The notes under the pieces were generated by a model. It had not been told where the DNA came from. It saw nothing but the letters and a program-made list of their open reading frames with translations, and did no database searches. A program made the translations under genes and the position numbers. A stretch of 64,000 nt of DNA. Source: Pontiellaceae bacterium B1224 (GTDB lineage: Bacteria; Verrucomicrobiota; Kiritimatiellia; Kiritimatiellales; Pontiellaceae). Numbering within the stretch: position 1 is the first letter of the stretch; the number at the start of each line of letters is the position of its first letter. Below, piece after piece: positions 37,035 through 48,015 of this stretch. The DNA lies in NCBI GenBank assembly GCA_029432815.1, contig JAROBA010000002.1, positions 1-64,000 of the forward strand, read 5' to 3'.

Positions 37035-37376
37035 TCAGCCTACAGCGTCAGTCCCCGTTTCTCCCGTACGGATCCGGATGCACTTGGGCAGATCAAGGAT
37101 GAAGATCTTTCCATCCCCGATATTACCACTGCGTGCTCCTTTAATGATCGCGTCGGTAGTGGACTCGACAAACTCGTCGTTCACAGCGATTTCCATACGA
37201 ACCTTTTTAAGCAGGTTCACTTCAATGTCCGCGCCGCGGTAGGTTTCGTGATAGCCCTTCTGCTGTCCGCATCCCATGGCATTGGTAACGGACATTTTGT
37301 AGACCTCTGCGTCGTAAAGCGACTGCTTCACGTCGTTGAGTGCTTCGGGCTGAATGTATGCAATAATCAGTTTCAT
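37035..37376 (-). CDS. Nitrogen regulatory protein PII (GlnB/GlnK)
   Basis: A 113-residue PII signal protein that binds ATP/ADP and 2-oxoglutarate and controls ammonium uptake and nitrogen metabolism. The T-loop reads [16 protein letters not shown], so Tyr46 is kept but the uridylylated Tyr51 of E. coli GlnB is Ile here, and position 49 is Ala. The C-terminal [18 protein letters not shown] block is conserved. It follows amtB by 18 bp in the same operon, so it most likely gates AmtB. Confidence 0.93.
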
Positions 37377-37394
37377 TAGTTTGGTCCTTTCAGA

Positions 37395-38741
37395 TTAAAC
37401 GTTCGTGAAGAACTGGAAGCCATGATACGCTTCCATTCCGTGTTCGCCAAGGTCAAGTCCCTTGAGTTCTTCTTCTTTGCTCACGCGGATACCGACGGTG
37501 ACTTTCAAGACCATGAAGATGAGCAAAGCAGCCGGGAAACAAACCACTGCATAGGCCGCAATACCAATGAGCTGCGGAACAATTCCATGGTCCGGGCTGA
37601 GGGCAACAAACAGCGTTCCGAGAATACCGCAAACCAGATGGACGGTCGTTGCACCCACCGGATCGTCAAGTTTCAGACGGTCGAAGAACATTACAGAAAC
37701 CACCGCAATTGCTCCGCAAACCAGACCAACCACAACGGCCCATGGAACGGAGATGACATCCGCACCGGCCGTGATTCCGACCAAGCCGGCCAGACAGCCG
37801 TTGAGCACCATGGTGAGGTCCGGATGCTTCTGAACAATCCACGATGTCGTCATGGAACCAATAATACCGGCGGCGGCGGCAAGACAGGTTGTAACGAGAA
37901 CATAGGAAACGAGTCCCGGATCAGCCGACAGCACAGAACCGCCGTTAAATCCGAACCAACCGAGCCACAGGAGAAATACACCGATGGTGAGCAGCGGCAT
38001 GCTATGCCCCTGAATGGCTTTAACTTTGCCGTTCACGTATTTACCCAGTCGTGGTCCGAGCAGGATGATACCGGCGAGAGCACCCCATCCACCTACGGAG
38101 TGAACGAGCGTGGAGCCTGCAAAATCATAGAAGCCAATATTGTCGAGCCAGCCAGCGCCCCATTTCCAGGAACCAACCCACGGATAAACAATACCAACAT
38201 AAATAGCGCTGAAGATCAGGAACGGTCCTAATTTAACGCGACCGGCAACCGCGCCCGAAACAATGGTAGCTGCTGTGGCGGCGAACATGCCCTGAAACAA
38301 AAAATCTGTCCAATAGGTATAGCCTGGATTATAGGCCGAGGTCAGGCCGCCTTCCGGACAGCTGATGCCGAAGCCGGCAAATCCGAAGATACCGTTCCAA
38401 TCGACGCCCATTTCACCCGGATACATCAGGTTGAAGCCCACCATCGCATAGGTCAGAAGACCAATCGCCGGAATGGCTGTGTTTTTGAACAGAATATTCA
38501 CTGAGTTCTTTGCGCGGGTCAGGCCGGTTTCCACCATAGCGAACCCCAGATGCATGATGAATACGAGGAACGTCGCAACCATCATCCAGGTATTATTAAC
38601 GGTAAACATGGCCGTATCGGCCGTTGCCAAGGCATCGACCGCGGTGACTTCGGCGGCAACATCTTCCGCCAGGGTGGCCATCGGCAGCGCGACAGCACAA
38701 AGCGCGATCAACAGCATCGCGATTTTCTTAATTTTTTGCAT
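37395..38741 (-). CDS. amtB: Ammonium transporter
   Basis: A 448-residue Amt/Rh channel with an N-terminal signal-like segment and 11 TM helices. The pore twin histidines are present in STLVHSVGGWGAL and ATTVHLVCGILG. The C-terminal tail (VSKEEELKGLDLGEHGMEAYHGF) has the pattern that contacts PII proteins. It is first in an amtB-PII operon and sits behind a good sigma-54 promoter, so it should be induced in nitrogen limitation. Confidence 0.96.
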   Translation of the reverse strand: MQKIKKIAMLLIALCAVALPMATLAEDVAAEVTAVDALATADTAMFTVNNTWMMVATFLVFIMHLGFAMVETGLTRAKNSVNILFKNTAIPAIGLLTYAMVGFNLMYPGEMGVDWNGIFGFAGFGISCPEGGLTSAYNPGYTYWTDFLFQGMFAATAATIVSGAVAGRVKLGPFLIFSAIYVGIVYPWVGSWKWGAGWLDNIGFYDFAGSTLVHSVGGWGALAGIILLGPRLGKYVNGKVKAIQGHSMPLLTIGVFLLWLGWFGFNGGSVLSADPGLVSYVLVTTCLAAAAGIIGSMTTSWIVQKHPDLTMVLNGCLAGLVGITAGADVISVPWAVVVGLVCGAIAVVSVMFFDRLKLDDPVGATTVHLVCGILGTLFVALSPDHGIVPQLIGIAAYAVVCFPAALLIFMVLKVTVGIRVSKEEELKGLDLGEHGMEAYHGFQFFTNV

Positions 38742-38806
38742 TTTGCATCCTCCAGGAATTTAAACAATTTTTTAACGACCCAGTAGCGGCCGATTGGAAG
38801 CCTAAT

Positions 38807-38822
38807 TGCAGGAGGTGTGCCA
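38807..38822 (-). promoter_or_regulatory. Sigma-54 promoter of amtB
   Basis: On the minus strand, TGGCACACCTCCTGCA matches the sigma-54 consensus TGGCAC-N5-TTGCA with one change and the exact GG-to-GC spacing. It ends 66 bp upstream of the amtB ATG, giving a leader of about 50 nt. The AT-rich DNA behind it (38850-38950) could carry activator sites. Confidence 0.8.
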
Positions 38823-39002
38823 GCGAACCCCGGAAGCCATAGAGTGCTTTAGGGCAAGTATTAACAAATATTTCCGAAAAATGCCCTGAAACAACAATTT
38901 TGACAGTTATGTTAAATATATAACTTATATTACATAATTGTATTTCATAAACCCGGGGTTTCCACGGGTATATTCAATGCTTAGAACAGCGTCGTGAGCA
39001 GA

Positions 39003-41285
39003 TCAGGCTTCGACTTCTTTCGCCAGATTACGGTCCAGCAGAAAGGCTTCCACTTCGCTGATGCGTCCGAAATCGAGCATGCAGTTGGCAATCTCTTCGG
39101 CCTCGGCCAGATTGGTGGCATTCACCAGTCGCTGCACCGTCGGCGCATTCACACTGTCGATACTGAACTTTTTAAGCCCGACGCCCAGCAGGAACGGCAG
39201 CATCCGCGGATCCGCCGACAAATCGCCGCAAATGGATACGTCGATATTATGCGTCATGCCGGCCGACACAATCCGGTTGATTGCGCGCAGAATGGCCGGA
39301 TGATGAGCCAGATACAATTTGGAAACCATTTCATTGGTCCGGTCGACCGCGAGCATATACTGAATCAGGTCGTTCGAACCGATCGAAAGAAAGTCCGCTT
39401 CGTGAGCCAGCTCGTCGACGACCTCAACCGCAGACGGCAGTTCCATCATGACCCCGAGTTTCGTCTTCGGGTTATAAGCAATGCCCTCAGCATCCAGACT
39501 GATCATGCACTCCTGCACAATGTCACGCGCGGCAATAAAATCGTCCACCGAAGAAACCAGCGGGAACATAATCCGGGTGTCGGCATTCGCACCCGCCCGC
39601 AGGAATGCGCGCAGCTGCTGAGTGAAAATATCTTTGTTCTGCAGCGAAAAACGAATCGCCCGCATTCCCAGAAACGGATTGGCTTCGGTGACGTTCGAAT
39701 AATAGGACAACATTTTGTCGCCCCCGATATCCAACGTCCGGAACGTAACGGTCCGGCCTTCCATCTGATCGACGAGCTTTTTATAGATGACGTACTGTTC
39801 TTCCTCCGTCGGAAAATCATTCCGGACAATAAAAGGAAACTCCGAGCGGTACAGCCCCACCCCTTCCACTTTGAACTCCCGTGCCGGTTTGAGGTCGCTC
39901 AACAGATTGATGTTGGCATAAATATTCACCTGCTCACCGCATTTCGTGAGCGTCTGCTCCTTCATGTCGGAAGCATCGTGGAGCATTTTCCAGGCGCTTT
40001 CGAGTTCCCGGTATTTATCGTAAACTTCGCAGCCCGGATGCAGATAAATAATACCCTGCTCGGCATCCATCAGCATTTCTTCGCCATCCGGAATGCTGTC
40101 GGCCTGATCGCGGCTGATAGCCACCATCGGAATGCCCAGAGAGCGGGAAATGATGGCATTGTGCGAAGTCACTCCACTGCTGACGATGAACCCTTCCACA
40201 TTTTCGGCAGAAAGCTTCAGAATATCGGACGGCAGCAATTCATGGGCAATAATGATCTGTCCGCGATAGTCGCATTCATCGGACTCCTCGTTTAGCAGAT
40301 TGCGGGTAAGGCGGTTTCCCAGGTCCTTAACATCCAGCACCTTCTCGCGAATAAGCGGCATTTTGCTCTTCGAGAAAATTTCAACATATTCATTAACAAC
40401 GGTGGCAATCGCCTGTACGGCCTCTGTCCCGGTATGAATCAGGTTGGCAATCCGACCGGTGAACTGCTGATCTTCCAGAATCAACAGGTGTGCACTGAAA
40501 ATCAAGACGGCCACATCGGCCAGGTCTTCACTCATCTGGCGCTGCAGCTTATCGATCTGGTCGGCCGTATTTTCCACGGCCCGTTCAAAATCCTCCACAG
40601 TGATTGGAGGCGCATCCGGATCGGGGAGCGCGCAGGTTTCATTTTCGGCGGAATCCAGCGTAAAAGCCTTCCCTCGTGCGGTGCCTGTACTCGCCGAACG
40701 CCCCCGGATAATGGAATCGGCAATCACCTTTTTCGGTGCAGGCACAGCGGCGGCGGCTGCGGCCGCTTCTTCCCGGGCCTCGCTCAAGAGCTGCACGTTT
40801 TCAATCATGGTGGCCAGCTGGGCTGCAATGGCCCGCAGGGCCTTCACATCGTTCGGCGTGAAATAGTTCGCTTCACCGGCCTGCACCACCAACGCTCCAA
40901 TACGGCGCAGCCCGCGCAGGATCGGCACCGCCAGAAAAGCTTCGTAATCCTCTTCATGAATGCCCGGGAAAAATTTATAAGAGGAACTCTGGGATGCGGT
41001 TCCAACGCAGATCGGGCGCAATTCGCGGACTGCACGGCCCGTAATTCCCTCCCCCAGCTTCAGCTTAACCTCACCAATAGCCATGAGGTCCAGCCCCTGC
41101 GTAGCGCGCAGGGTCAGTTCTTTATGCTCTTCATCATAAATATAGATTGAACAGACATCCGCATGCATATGCCCCGCCACAGACGTCACTACTTTCTGTA
41201 GCAACTCCCTACGGTCACGGCCCCCTTCGGCCAGCGATATCAGCTCCGCGATATCGCATACCAGATCTACGTTTCTCTTTTTCAT
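39003..41285 (-). CDS. ptsP: GAF-domain phosphoenolpyruvate phosphotransferase (enzyme I Ntr)
   Basis: A 760-residue enzyme I of the nitrogen-type PTS. Residues 1 to about 165 are a GAF domain (sensor of glutamine or 2-oxoglutarate in studied cases). An N-terminal enzyme I domain and the swivelling domain follow, with phospho-acceptor His375 in GVTSHNAIISRSLGIP, then the PEP-binding barrel (LYRSEFPF, RTLDIGGDK, FLSIGSNDLIQY, ICGDLSADP). It phosphorylates an NPr-type carrier, not in this window. Its place next to amtB and PII fits a nitrogen role. Confidence 0.94.
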   Translation of the reverse strand: MKKRNVDLVCDIAELISLAEGGRDRRELLQKVVTSVAGHMHADVCSIYIYDEEHKELTLRATQGLDLMAIGEVKLKLGEGITGRAVRELRPICVGTASQSSSYKFFPGIHEEDYEAFLAVPILRGLRRIGALVVQAGEANYFTPNDVKALRAIAAQLATMIENVQLLSEAREEAAAAAAAVPAPKKVIADSIIRGRSASTGTARGKAFTLDSAENETCALPDPDAPPITVEDFERAVENTADQIDKLQRQMSEDLADVAVLIFSAHLLILEDQQFTGRIANLIHTGTEAVQAIATVVNEYVEIFSKSKMPLIREKVLDVKDLGNRLTRNLLNEESDECDYRGQIIIAHELLPSDILKLSAENVEGFIVSSGVTSHNAIISRSLGIPMVAISRDQADSIPDGEEMLMDAEQGIIYLHPGCEVYDKYRELESAWKMLHDASDMKEQTLTKCGEQVNIYANINLLSDLKPAREFKVEGVGLYRSEFPFIVRNDFPTEEEQYVIYKKLVDQMEGRTVTFRTLDIGGDKMLSYYSNVTEANPFLGMRAIRFSLQNKDIFTQQLRAFLRAGANADTRIMFPLVSSVDDFIAARDIVQECMISLDAEGIAYNPKTKLGVMMELPSAVEVVDELAHEADFLSIGSNDLIQYMLAVDRTNEMVSKLYLAHHPAILRAINRIVSAGMTHNIDVSICGDLSADPRMLPFLLGVGLKKFSIDSVNAPTVQRLVNATNLAEAEEIANCMLDFGRISEVEAFLLDRNLAKEVEA

Positions 41286-41426: not shown

Positions 41427-44400
41427 ATGAATATACCTTCTGCTGAACAACTGCTCGAACTGTACCGTCCTATGGTTGCCTCGCGCTACACCGACCAACT
41501 GCAGTCGGCGGCCGCCCAACGTGGCGAGGTTTTTTTCTATATCCCTTCATCGGGACACGAAGCCTCCGCCGCTCTGGAACCGCACCTGATTGAGGGCGAC
41601 TGGCTGCACCTGCACTATCGCGACCGTGCTCTTGCCTATGCCCGCGGCGTTTCCTATGAAACCGTTTTTTACGGCCTTTTCTCCAAAGAAGAGTCCAACT
41701 CCGCCGGACGGCGTATGCCTGCCTTCCCGTGCGATCCATCCCTGAACATCATGAGCACCCCGACGCTCGTCGGCAGCAATGTGCTGCAGGCCGTCGGCGT
41801 GGCCGCCACCATTAAAGACGATGAAGGCAACCCGTTTGTTCTCGTCTCCGTGGGCGACGGCGCCACCCAGCAGGGCGAATTCTACGAGGCCGTGGCCGAA
41901 GCCGTGCGCTCCAACCTGCCGGTTCTCTTCCTGATCGAAGACAACCGCTTTGCGCTCTCCACCGTCACCAAAGGCAACACCTTCTATTCCCTGCCCAATG
42001 GCGAAGCCGACTCCTTTTACGGACTGCCGATTCATCGGGTCGACGGTTCTGACGCGGTTCCAACCTTTGGAAAATTCGGCGAAGTGGTTTCCAACCTTCG
42101 GAAAACCCGCGGCCCGCAAATTGTGGTTTTCAATGTGGAACGACTTGAAAGCCACACCAACGCCGACGACCAATCGATGTATCGCACCGAGGCCGATCTT
42201 AAAAACGCGGCCGAGAATGCCGACCCCTGCGCCAAGCTGCGCGACTATATGCTCGCCAATGGTGTGGATGCCGCCGAAGTGAAAGCGGTTGAAGACGATG
42301 TGAAGGCGAAAGTCGATGCCGCCTTCCACCTTTCCCGCACCGGCACCACGCCCAAAGCCGTGCTGACGGCCAAGAAGGAACTCCCCGCTCCGCGCGAAGA
42401 ATATCTGGGAACTTCCAATGATCGGAACCTCAGTATGCTCGAAGCCATGCGCGAGGCCCTGAAGAACCGACTTTCCAATGATCGGAAAACCTTCCTGCAC
42501 GGACAGGATATTGAAGATCCGAAAGGCGATGTCTTCGGGCTCACCCGCGGGCTCTCCCAAACCTTCCCCGATCAGGTGAATAATGCGCCGCTGGCCGAAA
42601 ACACCATTCTCGGTGTCGCAACCGGACAGGCGCTGGCAGGCGCAAAACCCGTCGCCTTCATGCAGTTCGCCGATTTCATGCCGGTGGCGTATAACCACAT
42701 TCTTTCCGAAATCGGTGCGATGTACTGGCGCACGAACGGCCAGTTTGAAACGCCCGTACTGATCATGTCGATTGCAGGCGGCTACCGTCCGGGCCTCGGT
42801 CCGTATCATGCCCAGACCATGGAATCGATTTGTGCGCACGTTCCCGGCGTCGATGTATTCATGCCCTCCACTGCGGCGGATGCTGCGGGGCTGCTGAATG
42901 CCATCGCCGAATCCGGCCGCCCGTCGGTTTTCCTCTTTCCGAAGAGTCTGATTAACGACCGCGCAAATACCACCTCCGCCGATATCGACAAACAGTATGT
43001 CCCGATTGGCAAAGCCCGTGTTGCGCGCGTCGGACAGGATATTACCCTGGTCAGCTGGGGAAGCTGCATGCCGGTGGTCGAGCGGACTGCCGAAGCGTTG
43101 AAAGAAATCGGTCTGAACGCGGAGGTCCTCGATCTTCGTACGATCTTCCCGTGGGATGAAGAAACCGTTCTGGCTTCCGCCCGAAAAACCGGCAAACTGA
43201 TCATCATCCACGAAGACAACCAGACAGCCGGTATGGGCGGCGAAATTGCCGCAGCCATTGCTGAAAAAGCCGGAAGCGAAGTGCAGGTGGCGCGCGTCAC
43301 CCGTCCCGACACCTACATTCCCTACGATTTTTCCTGCCAGATCGACGTACTGCCCTCCTTCAAGCGCACACTCGAAAAATGCTGCGAGTTGCTGGATGTT
43401 GATATCCATTGGGAAAAACCGGTGGAAGAAGAAGCCGGCACCGTCATCGTTAAAGCCATCGGCTCCAGCCCGTCCGACGAAACCATCAATGTCGCCAGCC
43501 TGCTGGTGAGCGAAGGCGAAGATATTGCCGAAGGCGATCTGATTGCCTCGGTCGAAGCCGATAAAGCCTCGATGGACATCTCTTCTCCAGTGTCTGGAAA
43601 GATTGCGAAGATCCTAGTTGAAGAAGGCGACACGCTGACCGTCGGAACACCAATGCTCAAGATTGCATCCGATGAAGCCGCCCAGCTCAAACCGCTCACC
43701 AAAGAAGAACCCGGCACCCCGATCATGGAACGGAGGCGGGCATCCGCCCCATCCCCGGTCCCTCAAGTATCAAGCATCCAGCGTCAATCCCCGATCTACA
43801 TTTCCAACATCACCACTGTATTCGGCTCCCGCCACCTGACCAACGATGAGTTGCTGCAGGGCCACGGCGAGTGGGATTCAGAAGCCATCCGCAAACGAAC
43901 CGGCATCGAAAACCGCTACTGGATCGACGGCGATGAAACGGTATTGACGCTCGCGGTCGATGCGACCAAACAGCTACTCGAAAAAGAAAATCTGCAGATC
44001 TCCGACATCGGAGCCATCATCTGCTCAACCGGTACGCCAACCACCATGACACCTTCGCTGGCCTGTAGCGTCTTGCACGCACTCAGCCCGGAAAAAGGAG
44101 AAGTGCTGATGCAGGCACACGATGTGAATGCCGCCTGCTCGGGGTACATGTATGCCCTGCAGTCCGCCTTCGACTTCCTGACCAATGCGCCCGAGAAAAA
44201 GGTGATCGTCATCACCGCCGAAACGCTTTCGCCAATGGTCAACCACAACGACCAGAAAACAATGGCGCTCTTCGGCGATGCGGCTACCGCTTCGCTCGTG
44301 AGCTGTGAAAAGCGGCCAGGCAATATCGGCGTGAAACTCAACCGTCCGTTCCTCTCCGCCACGGGCGTTGAGCCCAAGGTGCTCTATGTTCCAAACATGG

Positions 44401-44753
44401 GAAGCGGGGAAGTCATCGAAATGGAAGGCCTCACCGTATTTAAGCTGGCCGTGCGCAAGATGATCGACATGCTCGATAATGCCTGTAAAGAACGCGGTAT
44501 TACGGTTGATGATCTCGATAAGATTGTTCCGCATCAGGCGAACGAGCGCATCATCGAGGCAATTCGGAAAACGATTAAGTGCCCGCCGGAAAAAATGTTC
44601 AACCACATCCGGAAATACGGTAACACTTCGTCGAACACGATTCCGATTGCCCTGTGCGAACTGGTTCCAACCCTTGGAAACGAAACCAAAGTCGGCCTCA
44701 CCGCCTTCGGCGGCGGCTTCACCTTCGGCGCCGCGGTGATTGAAAAGGTTTAA
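41427..44753 (+). CDS. Fusion: 2-oxoacid dehydrogenase E1-alpha + E1-beta + lipoyl domain + ketosynthase III
   Basis: An 1108-residue single ORF with four parts. Residues 1 to about 320 are E1-alpha with the thiamine diphosphate motif GDG (143-145) to Asn173. Residues about 333-660 are E1-beta. Residues about 670-750 are a lipoyl domain with the modified Lys713 in EADKAS. After a Pro/Ser/Arg linker (752-788), residues about 790-1108 are a FabH-type 3-oxoacyl-ACP synthase with the full triad Cys904 (NAACSG), His1036 (PHQAN) and Asn1066 (YGNTSSN). There is no E2 acyltransferase domain. The enzyme should decarboxylate a 2-oxo acid (branched-chain by similarity), load the acyl on lipoate and pass it to the ketosynthase for condensation with malonyl-ACP. 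It stands alone, convergent with the SHD1 genes. Exact palindromes lie at 42058 and 44665, with several near copies. Confidence 0.93.
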   Translation: MNIPSAEQLLELYRPMVASRYTDQLQSAAAQRGEVFFYIPSSGHEASAALEPHLIEGDWLHLHYRDRALAYARGVSYETVFYGLFSKEESNSAGRRMPAFPCDPSLNIMSTPTLVGSNVLQAVGVAATIKDDEGNPFVLVSVGDGATQQGEFYEAVAEAVRSNLPVLFLIEDNRFALSTVTKGNTFYSLPNGEADSFYGLPIHRVDGSDAVPTFGKFGEVVSNLRKTRGPQIVVFNVERLESHTNADDQSMYRTEADLKNAAENADPCAKLRDYMLANGVDAAEVKAVEDDVKAKVDAAFHLSRTGTTPKAVLTAKKELPAPREEYLGTSNDRNLSMLEAMREALKNRLSNDRKTFLHGQDIEDPKGDVFGLTRGLSQTFPDQVNNAPLAENTILGVATGQALAGAKPVAFMQFADFMPVAYNHILSEIGAMYWRTNGQFETPVLIMSIAGGYRPGLGPYHAQTMESICAHVPGVDVFMPSTAADAAGLLNAIAESGRPSVFLFPKSLINDRANTTSADIDKQYVPIGKARVARVGQDITLVSWGSCMPVVERTAEALKEIGLNAEVLDLRTIFPWDEETVLASARKTGKLIIIHEDNQTAGMGGEIAAAIAEKAGSEVQVARVTRPDTYIPYDFSCQIDVLPSFKRTLEKCCELLDVDIHWEKPVEEEAGTVIVKAIGSSPSDETINVASLLVSEGEDIAEGDLIASVEADKASMDISSPVSGKIAKILVEEGDTLTVGTPMLKIASDEAAQLKPLTKEEPGTPIMERRRASAPSPVPQVSSIQRQSPIYISNITTVFGSRHLTNDELLQGHGEWDSEAIRKRTGIENRYWIDGDETVLTLAVDATKQLLEKENLQISDIGAIICSTGTPTTMTPSLACSVLHALSPEKGEVLMQAHDVNAACSGYMYALQSAFDFLTNAPEKKVIVITAETLSPMVNHNDQKTMALFGDAATASLVSCEKRPGNIGVKLNRPFLSATGVEPKVLYVPNMGSGEVIEMEGLTVFKLAVRKMIDMLDNACKERGITVDDLDKIVPHQANERIIEAIRKTIKCPPEKMFNHIRKYGNTSSNTIPIALCELVPTLGNETKVGLTAFGGGFTFGAAVIEKV
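42058..42072. repeat. Dispersed palindrome copy 23
   Basis: TTCCAACCTTTGGAA in the E1-alpha part of the fusion; frame 2 (Pro-Thr-Phe-Gly). Confidence 0.92.
44665..44679. repeat. Dispersed palindrome copy 24
   Basis: TTCCAACCCTTGGAA in the ketosynthase part of the fusion; frame 2 (Pro-Thr-Leu-Gly). Confidence 0.92.
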
Positions 44754-44787: not shown

Positions 44788-46209
44788 TCAAGGCTTAATA
44801 CTCTTACTGATAGAGAAAATGCATTTAAGCGTGGTTTCCCTATCAGCCTGAACCGGGAATTGGGACACCTTATTAATCGTATAGAAAGCTTCCCACAACC
44901 GAACGTCCTGTTCTCCCCGCGTGTAAGGCTGCCCGTTCGCATACAATTTCAAACGGGATTTAAAGCTTTCCAAATACCGCTTTCTCCTGCGTTCAGGGGT
45001 GCGTTTAAGGCTTTCGATGGCCTGCTCTTGCGTCTTCTGCGCGAGCGCGAATTGCCCATTCCTTGCGTAAGCCCGTGCCAAGAGGTCCAGTACGGCAACA
45101 TCATTTGGAGAAGATTCCTCACTTAGAGCCAACGCATGTTCAACTGCCCTCTCGCCATTCTGCACCGCTGGACTTGGGGACGACGAAAGAAGGTCAACCA
45201 ACATGACTCGAACAGAGGAATTTTCCTTGGACTCCAATATCATATCTGCGCATAACACGCATTGTTCGTCGAATTCTTTATAATAGAAGGCGGTCGCGAG
45301 TAAGGAGCTCCATTTGTGCTCAGGATCATAGAACGCCTCGAATGCCTCGGCGATTTCGCGTGCGCGCTCCTCGTCGGGCGCTTCTTTGACTTCTGCGAAC
45401 GCCTCTTCAAGCCATGTCGAGTATTCCGGGCCAGAAACCGCCCACCCCCGTACCTTCATTTTCTCTACATATGGCGAGTCCGCCTCCCCCCATTCAACTT
45501 CCTCTATCAAATCATCCGGCTCCGTGAAATCGCGAAAGAGCGGCGTCCCGCCAACATCGGGGCCATATATCCGAATCCAGATCCCTTGCAACTCGTCTTT
45601 CCACTCATCGTTGATGGTCGTGTCGGTAGTTGTAACACCGTTAACCGTGTTATACACAACGGTTTTACTGTATCGCTCCACCACATCAGCAGGGCTGGTC
45701 TTTAACTTCACGGTCCGCGTTGGCTCGATTGCGGCCAATTCCAGGGATCCGGATATGGTGCGCGCACCTTCCGGCCGATCGTCCTCTGCTACCCGTTTCA
45801 AAAAATAGCGGTATTCAACGCGCGAACCCTCTAGCGCTTGCTGGGAATTATTTTTGACGCTGACCTCGTATAACACGCGATTTCCTTCCCTTAGATCCTT
45901 CTTTGAGCCAAAACGATCCGTGATCTGCTTATCCATGGAAACCCGAAGACTCGTATCAGCCAGAAATGCGGAGGCTGCGATCCACTCCTTGATATACGCC
46001 TGATCCGCCTCCCCGAACACATCCGGCGTAACCCAGACCTTGCCCGCACCCCGCCGCTCGATTTGGATCCGTCCTCTTTTCGCATCGTACTCCACGATCC
46101 GTGCTTCCAGTGTCCGCCCATCCTTCGCGGTAAAAGCACGGAACCCCGGCTCCTCGGCCAGCGTCGCCATTGCCAGCATTCCAAAAACGACCCCTATCCA
46201 TTTTTTCAT
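44788..46209 (-). CDS. Secreted SHD1-domain protein with C-terminal helical repeats
   Basis: A 473-residue protein with a signal peptide and then an SLA1-homology-1-like domain (FRAFTAKDGRTLEARIVEYD to FGEADQAYIKEW, about residues 22-75). A middle beta-rich domain follows, and a C-terminal TPR-like part (AVLDLLARAYARNGQFALAQKTQEQAIESLKR). The ATG at 46209 has GGGGA upstream and matches the paralog's start. It is the downstream copy of a tandem duplication with the next gene upstream. Function unknown. Confidence 0.75.
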   Translation of the reverse strand: MKKWIGVVFGMLAMATLAEEPGFRAFTAKDGRTLEARIVEYDAKRGRIQIERRGAGKVWVTPDVFGEADQAYIKEWIAASAFLADTSLRVSMDKQITDRFGSKKDLREGNRVLYEVSVKNNSQQALEGSRVEYRYFLKRVAEDDRPEGARTISGSLELAAIEPTRTVKLKTSPADVVERYSKTVVYNTVNGVTTTDTTINDEWKDELQGIWIRIYGPDVGGTPLFRDFTEPDDLIEEVEWGEADSPYVEKMKVRGWAVSGPEYSTWLEEAFAEVKEAPDEERAREIAEAFEAFYDPEHKWSSLLATAFYYKEFDEQCVLCADMILESKENSSVRVMLVDLLSSSPSPAVQNGERAVEHALALSEESSPNDVAVLDLLARAYARNGQFALAQKTQEQAIESLKRTPERRRKRYLESFKSRLKLYANGQPYTRGEQDVRLWEAFYTINKVSQFPVQADRETTLKCIFSISKSIKP

Positions 46210-46256
46210 ACGATCCCCTATCCTGATCGACACCAAACAGTATCTTTAGCTGTGGC

Positions 46257-47705
46257 CTAATTGGCGGTCTTTGGTCGTTGCCCCAGTCGCAGAACACGTA
46301 AGTACGAACTGCTCTCTTCGATGGGAGCTGAAGGGGGGAGCACTAATTCATAATTGCAGTACAAATAGCACCCCGTTTCAGCGACGTCATCTTCTCCACG
46401 CGTGTAGGGCTTTTGATTCCGAAACAACGCAAGACGATTCTCAAAACTTTTAAGATATCGAGCCTGCTGCTTGGGTTTAGAGGCCAGGAGTTGGATGGCG
46501 ATTTCTTGGTGCTTAACCGCCAAATCAAACTGTCCATCTCGAGCGTATGCCCGAGCCAGCAGTTCATGATTGCTGACTGTTTCCCAATTACGCTTCTTGT
46601 TCTTATAATACTCTACATTCATTTCCGCATACTCAACGGCAAGGGCACCATTCTGTACCTTTGTATCCGGAGAGGAGGCATATAACTCGATGAGCACGGA
46701 ATGAAAAAAGGGAAGGCTTACATCGGGGTCAGGTTTTGTTAATTTTTTCTGCCAATTGATACAGAGCGCATCTTCTCCCTTATTATAGAAGGCTGCGACA
46801 ACGGATTGCATCAGATACTCTGTAGAGTAGAAGTATCCCAATCCTTTGGATATGTCTACACAGGTATCATGATCAGGCGCAGCTACGATGGCCAGTATGG
46901 CTTCATCAATCCACTCCACCTCTTCTTCTCTCGAAGAAGCCGCTCCCCGGTACCGCGCGATGTCCGAGAAAGAGCTCCCTGATTCTTCCCTCTGCACATT
47001 TTTGATCAGATCAGAAGGATAGGTAATATCCCGATATAATGCCGTTCCATCCACTTCAGGGCCATAGATCCGAATCCAAATTCCCAGGAGCTCCTCTTCA
47101 CTCATCTTCACAGGAATCTTTTCCGGGATTCCGTAACCGTCCCCTTCCAGCTGTATTTTAAACTTCGTTACCAAGGGCAGGGAATCCGTCTTTAATTCAT
47201 GGGATGCACCGGGATCAAGGCGTCCGAGCGCAAGTGTTCCATGCACTGTTTTCTCGGTATCTTCACCCCCTTCCCTTCTAACATTCCGAACATAATAACG
47301 ATACTCGATCTTGGAGATATCCAGAGCCTGTTTGCTGTAATTCTTAATTTCTACTTCATAGCCGACCTTCTCTATTTCGCGCTGTGTCTTTTCCTTTGAT
47401 CCCGAACGCCCCAGATTTTTCTTATCTACGGAAACCCGTAGACTCTTTTCCTCCAAAAATGCGGATGCAGAGATCCATTCCTTAATATACGCCTGATCGG
47501 CTTCTCCAAATACATTGGGTGCGACCCAAACCATGCCCGCGCCCTGCCGCTCGATTTTGATTTTCCCTTTTCGCGCGTCGTATTCCACGATCCGCGCTTC
47601 CAGCGTGCGCCCGTCCTTTGCGGTGAATGCACGGAACTCGGACTCCTCGGCTAATGACGCCACCGCCATCAAAAGACACCCGATTCCCAATATCCATTTT
47701 TTCAC
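46257..47705 (-). CDS. Secreted SHD1-domain protein, tandem paralog
   Basis: A 482-residue paralog of the adjacent protein. The signal peptide and SHD1 block are nearly identical (FRAFTAKDGRTLEARIVEYDARKGKIKIERQGAG), and divergence grows toward the C-terminus. I choose the GTG start at 47705 because AAGGGG lies 5 nt upstream and the paralog starts at the aligned position; an ATG six codons earlier is the alternative. It lies 47 bp upstream of its copy in the same direction. Confidence 0.73.
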   Translation of the reverse strand: MKKWILGIGCLLMAVASLAEESEFRAFTAKDGRTLEARIVEYDARKGKIKIERQGAGMVWVAPNVFGEADQAYIKEWISASAFLEEKSLRVSVDKKNLGRSGSKEKTQREIEKVGYEVEIKNYSKQALDISKIEYRYYVRNVRREGGEDTEKTVHGTLALGRLDPGASHELKTDSLPLVTKFKIQLEGDGYGIPEKIPVKMSEEELLGIWIRIYGPEVDGTALYRDITYPSDLIKNVQREESGSSFSDIARYRGAASSREEEVEWIDEAILAIVAAPDHDTCVDISKGLGYFYSTEYLMQSVVAAFYNKGEDALCINWQKKLTKPDPDVSLPFFHSVLIELYASSPDTKVQNGALAVEYAEMNVEYYKNKKRNWETVSNHELLARAYARDGQFDLAVKHQEIAIQLLASKPKQQARYLKSFENRLALFRNQKPYTRGEDDVAETGCYLYCNYELVLPPSAPIEESSSYLRVLRLGQRPKTAN

Positions 47706-48015
47706 AACAACCCCTTGCTTCATTTAATCACAAAAAATTACTTTTATTTAATTAGAACTCGTGCAGAACACCAAGTATTTTATTTTGGAGATCTCAAACA
47801 ATCCTCCCCCATGCAAACGACGCGCAACCCCAAAGCGCAGCCACTGAAGATAAAATCAGGTTAAAATATGGTTAAGGTTATACTAGATCCCAACTTTAAG
47901 ATTTTTTTTAAATTAGGCTTTGGCCGTCCCCAAAATATACGCATAGTGCCCCGCCTAAGATAAATGTGTTTAATTAAACCGTATAATTTAAGTGCGGGAC
48001 AACTCAGGGGGAATA
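47706..48015. other. Intergenic region between SHD1 pair and purine uptake genes
   Basis: A 310-bp AT-rich divergent gap. It holds the candidate promoter and operator of the tsx-like gene near 47968-47987. I looked for a purine-type riboswitch before this purine uptake pair and saw none. Confidence 0.45.
47968..47987 (+). promoter_or_regulatory. Candidate operator and -10 box of the Tsx/AzgA genes
   Basis: A perfect 12-bp palindrome GTTTAATTAAAC (47968-47979) is followed two bases later by TATAAT (47982-47987). A repressor bound there would cover the -35/-10 spacer. No clear -35 box is visible. Confidence 0.5.

Follow-up and report, generated by a model that had tools for sequence, protein, structure and literature searches.

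How does an acyl group reach a ketosynthase that is joined, on one polypeptide, to the enzyme that makes the group available? The question is raised by a gene at positions 41427 to 44753 (+) of the first 64,000 nucleotides of contig JAROBA010000002.1 of Pontiellaceae bacterium B1224 (GCA_029432815.1; this whole stretch is the window referred to below). The gene encodes, as a single fusion, the E1-alpha and E1-beta parts of a 2-oxo-acid dehydrogenase, a lipoyl domain and a FabH-type ketosynthase (KS), or β-ketoacyl-acyl carrier protein (ACP) synthase III (KAS III). In the textbook view, fatty acid synthesis begins with acyl-coenzyme A (acyl-CoA), and CoA is also the acceptor to which 2-oxo-acid dehydrogenases transfer their acyl group. 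The original prediction for this locus was that the lipoyl arm transfers the acyl group straight to the KS, so that chains are primed independently of CoA. Our analysis supports this reading, and we consider it likely that the protein is a self-contained initiation synthase for fatty-acid or related acyl chains, with CoA-free loading of the KS from the lipoyl group; we infer this from the loss of the CoA-adenine clamp in 95 of 95 fused KS domains, the location of the KS where relatives carry an E2 acyltransferase, and the even-numbered iso fatty acids of Pontiella and Tichowtungia. The gene and its parts are as follows:

41427..44753 (+): fusion gene, E1-alpha / E1-beta / lipoyl / KAS III, 1108 aa, ATG start (translation, Pfam, homologues in the order)
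41466..42344 (+): E1-alpha domain, E1_dh residues 14–306, with the thiamine diphosphate (ThDP) motif GDG143–145...N173 and the phosphorylation-loop His243 (Pfam, E=3.8e-41)
42429..43328 (+): E1-beta domain, Transket_pyr 335–509 and Transketolase_C 528–634, with Glu391 and His461 (Pfam)
43440..43670 (+): lipoyl domain, residues about 672–748, with the candidate lipoyl lysine K713 at 43563–43565 (Pfam Biotin_lipoyl, E=3.2e-17)
43671..43790 (+): lipoyl–KS linker, variable and flexible, with no E3/E1-binding (peripheral subunit-binding, PSBD) domain (alignment, predicted disorder, Pfam)
43791..44750 (+): KAS III (FabH-type) domain (Pfam, NCBIfam PRK09352, residue comparison, fold matches to FabH structures)
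44136–44138, 44532–44534 and 44622–44624 (+): Cys904, His1036 and Asn1066, the KAS III triad

Translation of the window gives one uninterrupted open reading frame, and the domains and all the catalytic residues named in the original prediction proved correct. Above their cut-offs, Pfam models matched residues 689–746 (Biotin_lipoyl), 899–965 (ACP_syn_III) and 1020–1106 (ACP_syn_III_C), and a Pfam scan of the protein found neither 2-oxoacid_dh (the E2 acyltransferase, PF00198) nor e3_binding (PSBD). The proposal that the E2 acyltransferase is missing thus holds for the gene but not for the genome, which encodes two ordinary E2 genes apart from the fusion. In NCBIfam, the C-terminal third scores 269.5 bits for PRK09352 (beta-ketoacyl-ACP synthase 3; cut-off 249), and 228 for TIGR00747 (fabH), whose cut-off of 292.1 is not reached. 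The E1, lipoyl and KS parts are conserved among homologues, and the lipoyl–KS linker is variable, with a length of 41–72 aa. An AlphaFold model (mean pLDDT 89) predicts ordered domains, with residues 775–786 disordered, and the solved folds closest to it are FabHs and the branched-chain E1-beta of Thermus thermophilus.

The E1 part has the feature set of 2-oxo-acid dehydrogenases of the ThDP-dependent heteromeric type, including the active-site His and Glu. GDG 143–145, N173, K713, C904, H1036 and N1066 do not vary among 26 close homologues. In a set of 55 homologues from different phyla, the fully invariant residues are K713 (with E710), C904, H1036, N1066, the ThDP glycines, Asn173, H243, E391 and H461, and Asp144 is nearly so. 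K713 is the putative site of lipoylation. Among the distinct fusions, the thiolase-fold triad of KAS III is present throughout (Cys 95/95, His 95/95, Asn 94/95 with one gap), and within the order Kiritimatiellales the KS is the best conserved of all the fusion domains.

A sequencing or assembly error joining separate genes was ruled out by full-length, stop-free copies in other genomes. In Kiritimatiellales, 41 of 43 genomes match strongly, either with the complete protein or with fragments at contig ends. A full-length copy free of stops is present in every one of the 22 that are well assembled, among them one-contig assemblies and streamlined genomes of 1.2 Mb; a copy from Pontiellaceae bacterium B12227 is 91% identical and one from Pontiella sp. 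81%. Across the class the fusion is present in 27/88 genomes of at least 93% completeness, and in a phylum-wide sample in 36/388, two of these cut by contig ends. The same four-domain order, for which the original prediction had proposed a search, also occurs in several phyla: a scan of 84,980 species, in which the best 80 of 510 relatives were read and the taxonomic range is therefore a lower bound, gave full-length copies in Planctomycetota (Pirellulaceae and others), Spirochaetota, a Sumerlaeota metagenome-assembled genome (MAG), a Xenococcus MAG and the isolate Cerasicoccus arenae. Kiritimatiella glycovorans is not among these best 80 of 510 relatives, and on plasmids no match spans 80% of the fusion protein. 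The fusion enzyme is real and widespread. A literature search limited to open-licence papers returned no description of an E1/lipoyl/KAS III fusion, which is apparently undescribed so far.

In Escherichia coli FabH, the adenine of CoA is sandwiched between Trp32 and Arg151. An alignment set the KS domains of the 95 distinct fusions against 32 stand-alone FabHs, most of them from fusion-bearing genomes. W32 is found in 32/32 stand-alone FabHs and in 0/95 fusions, which have Asp, Ala, Glu or Lys there instead; R151 is found in 30/32 and 0/95, respectively, the fusions carrying Phe, Pro, Gln or Tyr. Both residues occur together in 30 of the 32 stand-alone FabHs and in the four solved FabHs of the alignment; the B1224 fusion has A820 and Q943 in place of the Trp and the Arg. 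The ACP-docking R249 is kept in 95/95 fusions (Arg1041 here), K214 and K256 are only partly conserved, and the acyl-pocket position F87′ is Thr in 92/95 (Thr875 here). In a tree, the KS domains of the fusions group in a single clade that excludes the stand-alone FabHs, and the unit has therefore stayed together across phyla. The clamp is still missing in fusions that have diverged to about 45% identity, and the positions it left vary freely. Judged by these residues, the fused KS has no site left for the CoA nucleotide but retains its chemistry and its principal contact with ACP.

What the KS may have replaced is suggested by a second type of protein, detected in 27 genomes of the phylum sample and 33–38% identical to the fusion across the E1–lipoyl part. 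The 14 proteins of this type that were read run E1-alpha, E1-beta, lipoyl and then an E2 acyltransferase, PF00198 being confirmed for one. None of the 388 genomes has both the KS form (36 genomes) and a protein scoring as the E2 form (27 genomes). In a tree with few outgroups (the E1s of the T. thermophilus branched-chain enzyme and of Geobacillus pyruvate dehydrogenase, and the second E1 of this genome), the E1 parts of the two forms group together (SH-aLRT 99). Since the same backbone ends in E2 in these relatives, the KS occupies the place of E2, as would be expected of an acyl acceptor. The fusion probably arose once, apparently through a swap of the C-terminal domain on an E1–lipoyl backbone common to both forms. 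The verrucomicrobial single-chain E2 forms (L055–L068), of about 1030 aa and with no recognisable PSBD, are themselves nearly whole 2-oxo-acid dehydrogenases.

We propose the following sequence of reactions. E1-alpha/beta would decarboxylate a 2-oxo acid with ThDP to give hydroxyalkyl-ThDP, and the lipoyl group on K713 of the same chain would be reductively acylated to acyl-dihydrolipoyl-K713; both steps are assigned because of family membership and the conserved residues. The lipoyl domain, on its flexible linker of 41–72 aa, would then hand the acyl group to Cys904, a direct transfer that we infer because of the clamp loss and the domain replacement. Because the triad and the ACP-docking Arg are intact, His1036 and Asn1066 are expected to drive decarboxylative condensation with malonyl-ACP to 3-oxoacyl-ACP, which would enter type II fatty acid synthesis (FAS II). 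Acyl-CoA would never be formed. The dihydrolipoyl group would be reoxidised in trans by an E3 encoded elsewhere; a need for E3 had been foreseen, and the genome does encode one, which carries its own lipoyl domain, as well as two lipoyl/biotin-ligase-family proteins. More broadly, we lean towards seeing in these proteins a widespread enzyme class, of single origin and spread over PVC (Planctomycetes–Verrucomicrobia–Chlamydiae) bacteria and spirochaetes, in which a 2-oxo-acid decarboxylase loads its starter by a lipoyl arm in cis onto a KAS III that does not bind CoA, giving a CoA-independent entry to fatty acid synthesis.

The substrate may be a branched one. The E1 part is closest to branched-chain-type E1s: the best PDB matches include the T. 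thermophilus branched-chain E1, among plasmid proteins the best annotated matches are 3-methyl-2-oxobutanoate dehydrogenases, and a GRxM segment in E1-alpha is common to the T. thermophilus enzyme and absent from the pyruvate dehydrogenase compared. Even-numbered iso chains derive from isobutyryl, the product of 2-oxoisovalerate. The window comes from a Pontiella-like genome, and the membranes of Pontiella and Tichowtungia contain C18:0 plus i-C12, i-C14, i-C16 and i-C18 (PMC7356697, PMC10880615), the isolates tested being presumed matches of fusion-bearing genomes. The substrate in Pontiella is thus probably 2-oxoisovalerate, and the isobutyryl primers that it would yield fit the even iso acids found there.

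Several observations weigh against this account. The two canonical E2 genes make acyl transfer to CoA in trans possible, and POR-type oxidoreductases together with a normal FabH offer another isobutyryl-CoA route. The main acids of the fusion-bearing Cerasicoccaceae are described as C14:0 and C18:1, and Coraliomargarita, which may or may not carry the fusion, makes iso-C14:0 (PMC10288369); lipid type therefore maps uncleanly on the gene. The prediction of branched fatty acids agrees with the published lipids of Pontiella and Tichowtungia but not with the main acids described for Cerasicoccaceae, because of which the substrate may differ between lineages. As to the clamp, it was probably lost in one ancestral event and not 95, given the single clade of the fused KSs. 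In 57/95 fusions a Trp occupies E. coli position 28, four residues before W32, and might stack with the adenine instead of W32. Finally, the fusions largely retain R36, N247, F213 and further residues on the pantetheine side, which is what binding of the ACP arm by these residues would predict.

These pantetheine-side residues, with the two E2 genes and the E3 of the genome, would also suit an arrangement in which the E1–lipoyl part and a canonical E2 in trans produce acyl-CoA, which the fused KS then uses like any FabH, the fusion serving co-localisation only. We regard this as unlikely: the adenine clamp, both residues of which are retained by 30/32 stand-alone FabHs, is absent from all the fusions; the fusion has neither a PSBD nor an E2 domain with which to bind an E2 core; and the relatives bear their own E2 catalytic domain at the exact position of the KS. 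Direct transfer from lipoyl to KS could also be right and the product not be a membrane fatty acid, another carrier or acceptor leading to a specialised lipid or metabolite, perhaps varying by phylum. The straight-chain main acids of Cerasicoccaceae (PMC10288369) and the lineage-specific neighbours of the gene, such as the microcompartment shell (BMC) doublet gene 8 nt downstream in marine Pirellulaceae, point that way; yet no biosynthetic cluster surrounds the gene in the loci examined, the ACP-docking Arg249 is invariant, Pontiella has even iso acids, and retention of the fusion in streamlined 1.2 Mb genomes suggests a housekeeping role, so that a specialised product seems quite improbable. 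FabH-type KSs are dimers. Such a dimer could stand in for an E2 core, but the invariant Cys and His, the all but invariant Asn and the strongest conservation of any domain in the order make it very improbable that the KS has only a structural or regulatory role, as a scaffold for an alternative 2-oxo-acid dehydrogenase.

The fusion is not the sole FabH of its host. The genome has a FAS II cluster (plsX, fabH, fabD, acpP and fabF, by inspection of translations), and an ordinary FabH accompanies the fusion in every fusion genome checked, including 10/10 distant genomes tested. Under the preferred reading of direct loading, tethering must therefore add something.

Compared with KAS III enzymes (E. 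coli FabH, 1HN9; the branched-chain FabHs of Bacillus and Staphylococcus), the fused KS has the same fold, Cys-His-Asn triad and ACP-docking Arg, but it is joined to an acyl-donor enzyme, lacks W32 and R151, has Thr at F87′, forms a separate clade and falls below the TIGR00747 cut-off. With the branched-chain 2-oxo-acid dehydrogenase complex (E1-alpha, E1-beta, E2 and E3) it shares the ThDP-motif E1, the active-site His and Glu and the lipoyl EADKA motif, whereas its E1 subunits and lipoyl domain lie on one chain with no E2 acyltransferase or PSBD, and the KS presumably replaces CoA as acyl acceptor. The fusion is thus a full member of neither family, because it lacks the CoA clamp of the one and the E2 and PSBD of the other. 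The single-chain proteins of other Verrucomicrobiota have the same order up to the lipoyl domain and end in PF00198 in place of KAS III. In tetronate biosynthesis (tetromadurin Mad16/Mad17), a FabH-like enzyme likewise takes its starter from a protein carrier and not from CoA (PMC7489565); there, however, the carrier is an ACP and not a lipoyl domain, there is no E1, an E2-like acyltransferase acts in a later step, and the genes are separate. The parts and single reactions are known; their combination with lost CoA recognition is, as far as we found, new. If the proposal is correct, the lipoyl arm would join the thioester carriers that supply FAS II as a third kind, and the selective even-iso lipids of Kiritimatiellales would have a simple origin. 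The fusion would also offer a module ready for use in engineering branched-chain lipids, and would be a clear case of a metabolic complex whose product is altered through exchange of a terminal domain.

In the related loci examined, the neighbours of the fusion are lineage-specific or unrelated housekeeping genes and indicate no function. The divergent neighbour is:

39003..41285 (−): ptsP (GAF and PTS enzyme I; NCBIfam, synteny in related loci)

ptsP lies adjacent to or near the fusion across the order, which probably means that the two genes share an intergenic region and not that they work together. It belongs to a block (window 37035–41285, divergently upstream) with a 113-aa gene in the PII/GlnK position and an ammonium transporter gene, conserved in Pontiellaceae; in the sister family ptsP and the fusion are separated by a YgiQ-type radical SAM gene. 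On the other side, two paralogous genes in tandem for TPR-like proteins (482 and 488 aa; window 44788–47723, −) converge on the fusion and are present or expanded in some Pontiella relatives only. A 620-aa open frame antisense inside the E1 region (window 41547–43409, −) is most likely a codon-bias shadow. In the marine Pirellulaceae clade, a gene with tandem BMC domains follows the fusion on the same strand (L128:9317–9940, with a gap of 8 nt; also in L115, L127, L129, L133, L135, L140 and L143), hinting at compartment association there.

Besides the fusion, the B1224 genome has one further alpha-type E1, in an apparent sugar cluster. A second 2-oxo-acid dehydrogenase set (L075:5111–10664, −) comprises a fused 817-aa E1, a lipoyl–E3 and an E2, and probably serves deoxy-sugar catabolism, since sugar kinase- and sugar dehydrogenase-like genes lie alongside. 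A third gene of the KAS III/chalcone-synthase type (L171:1432–2742, −) adjoins an RND/MMPL-type transporter and probably belongs to a lipid pathway like those of type III polyketide synthases.

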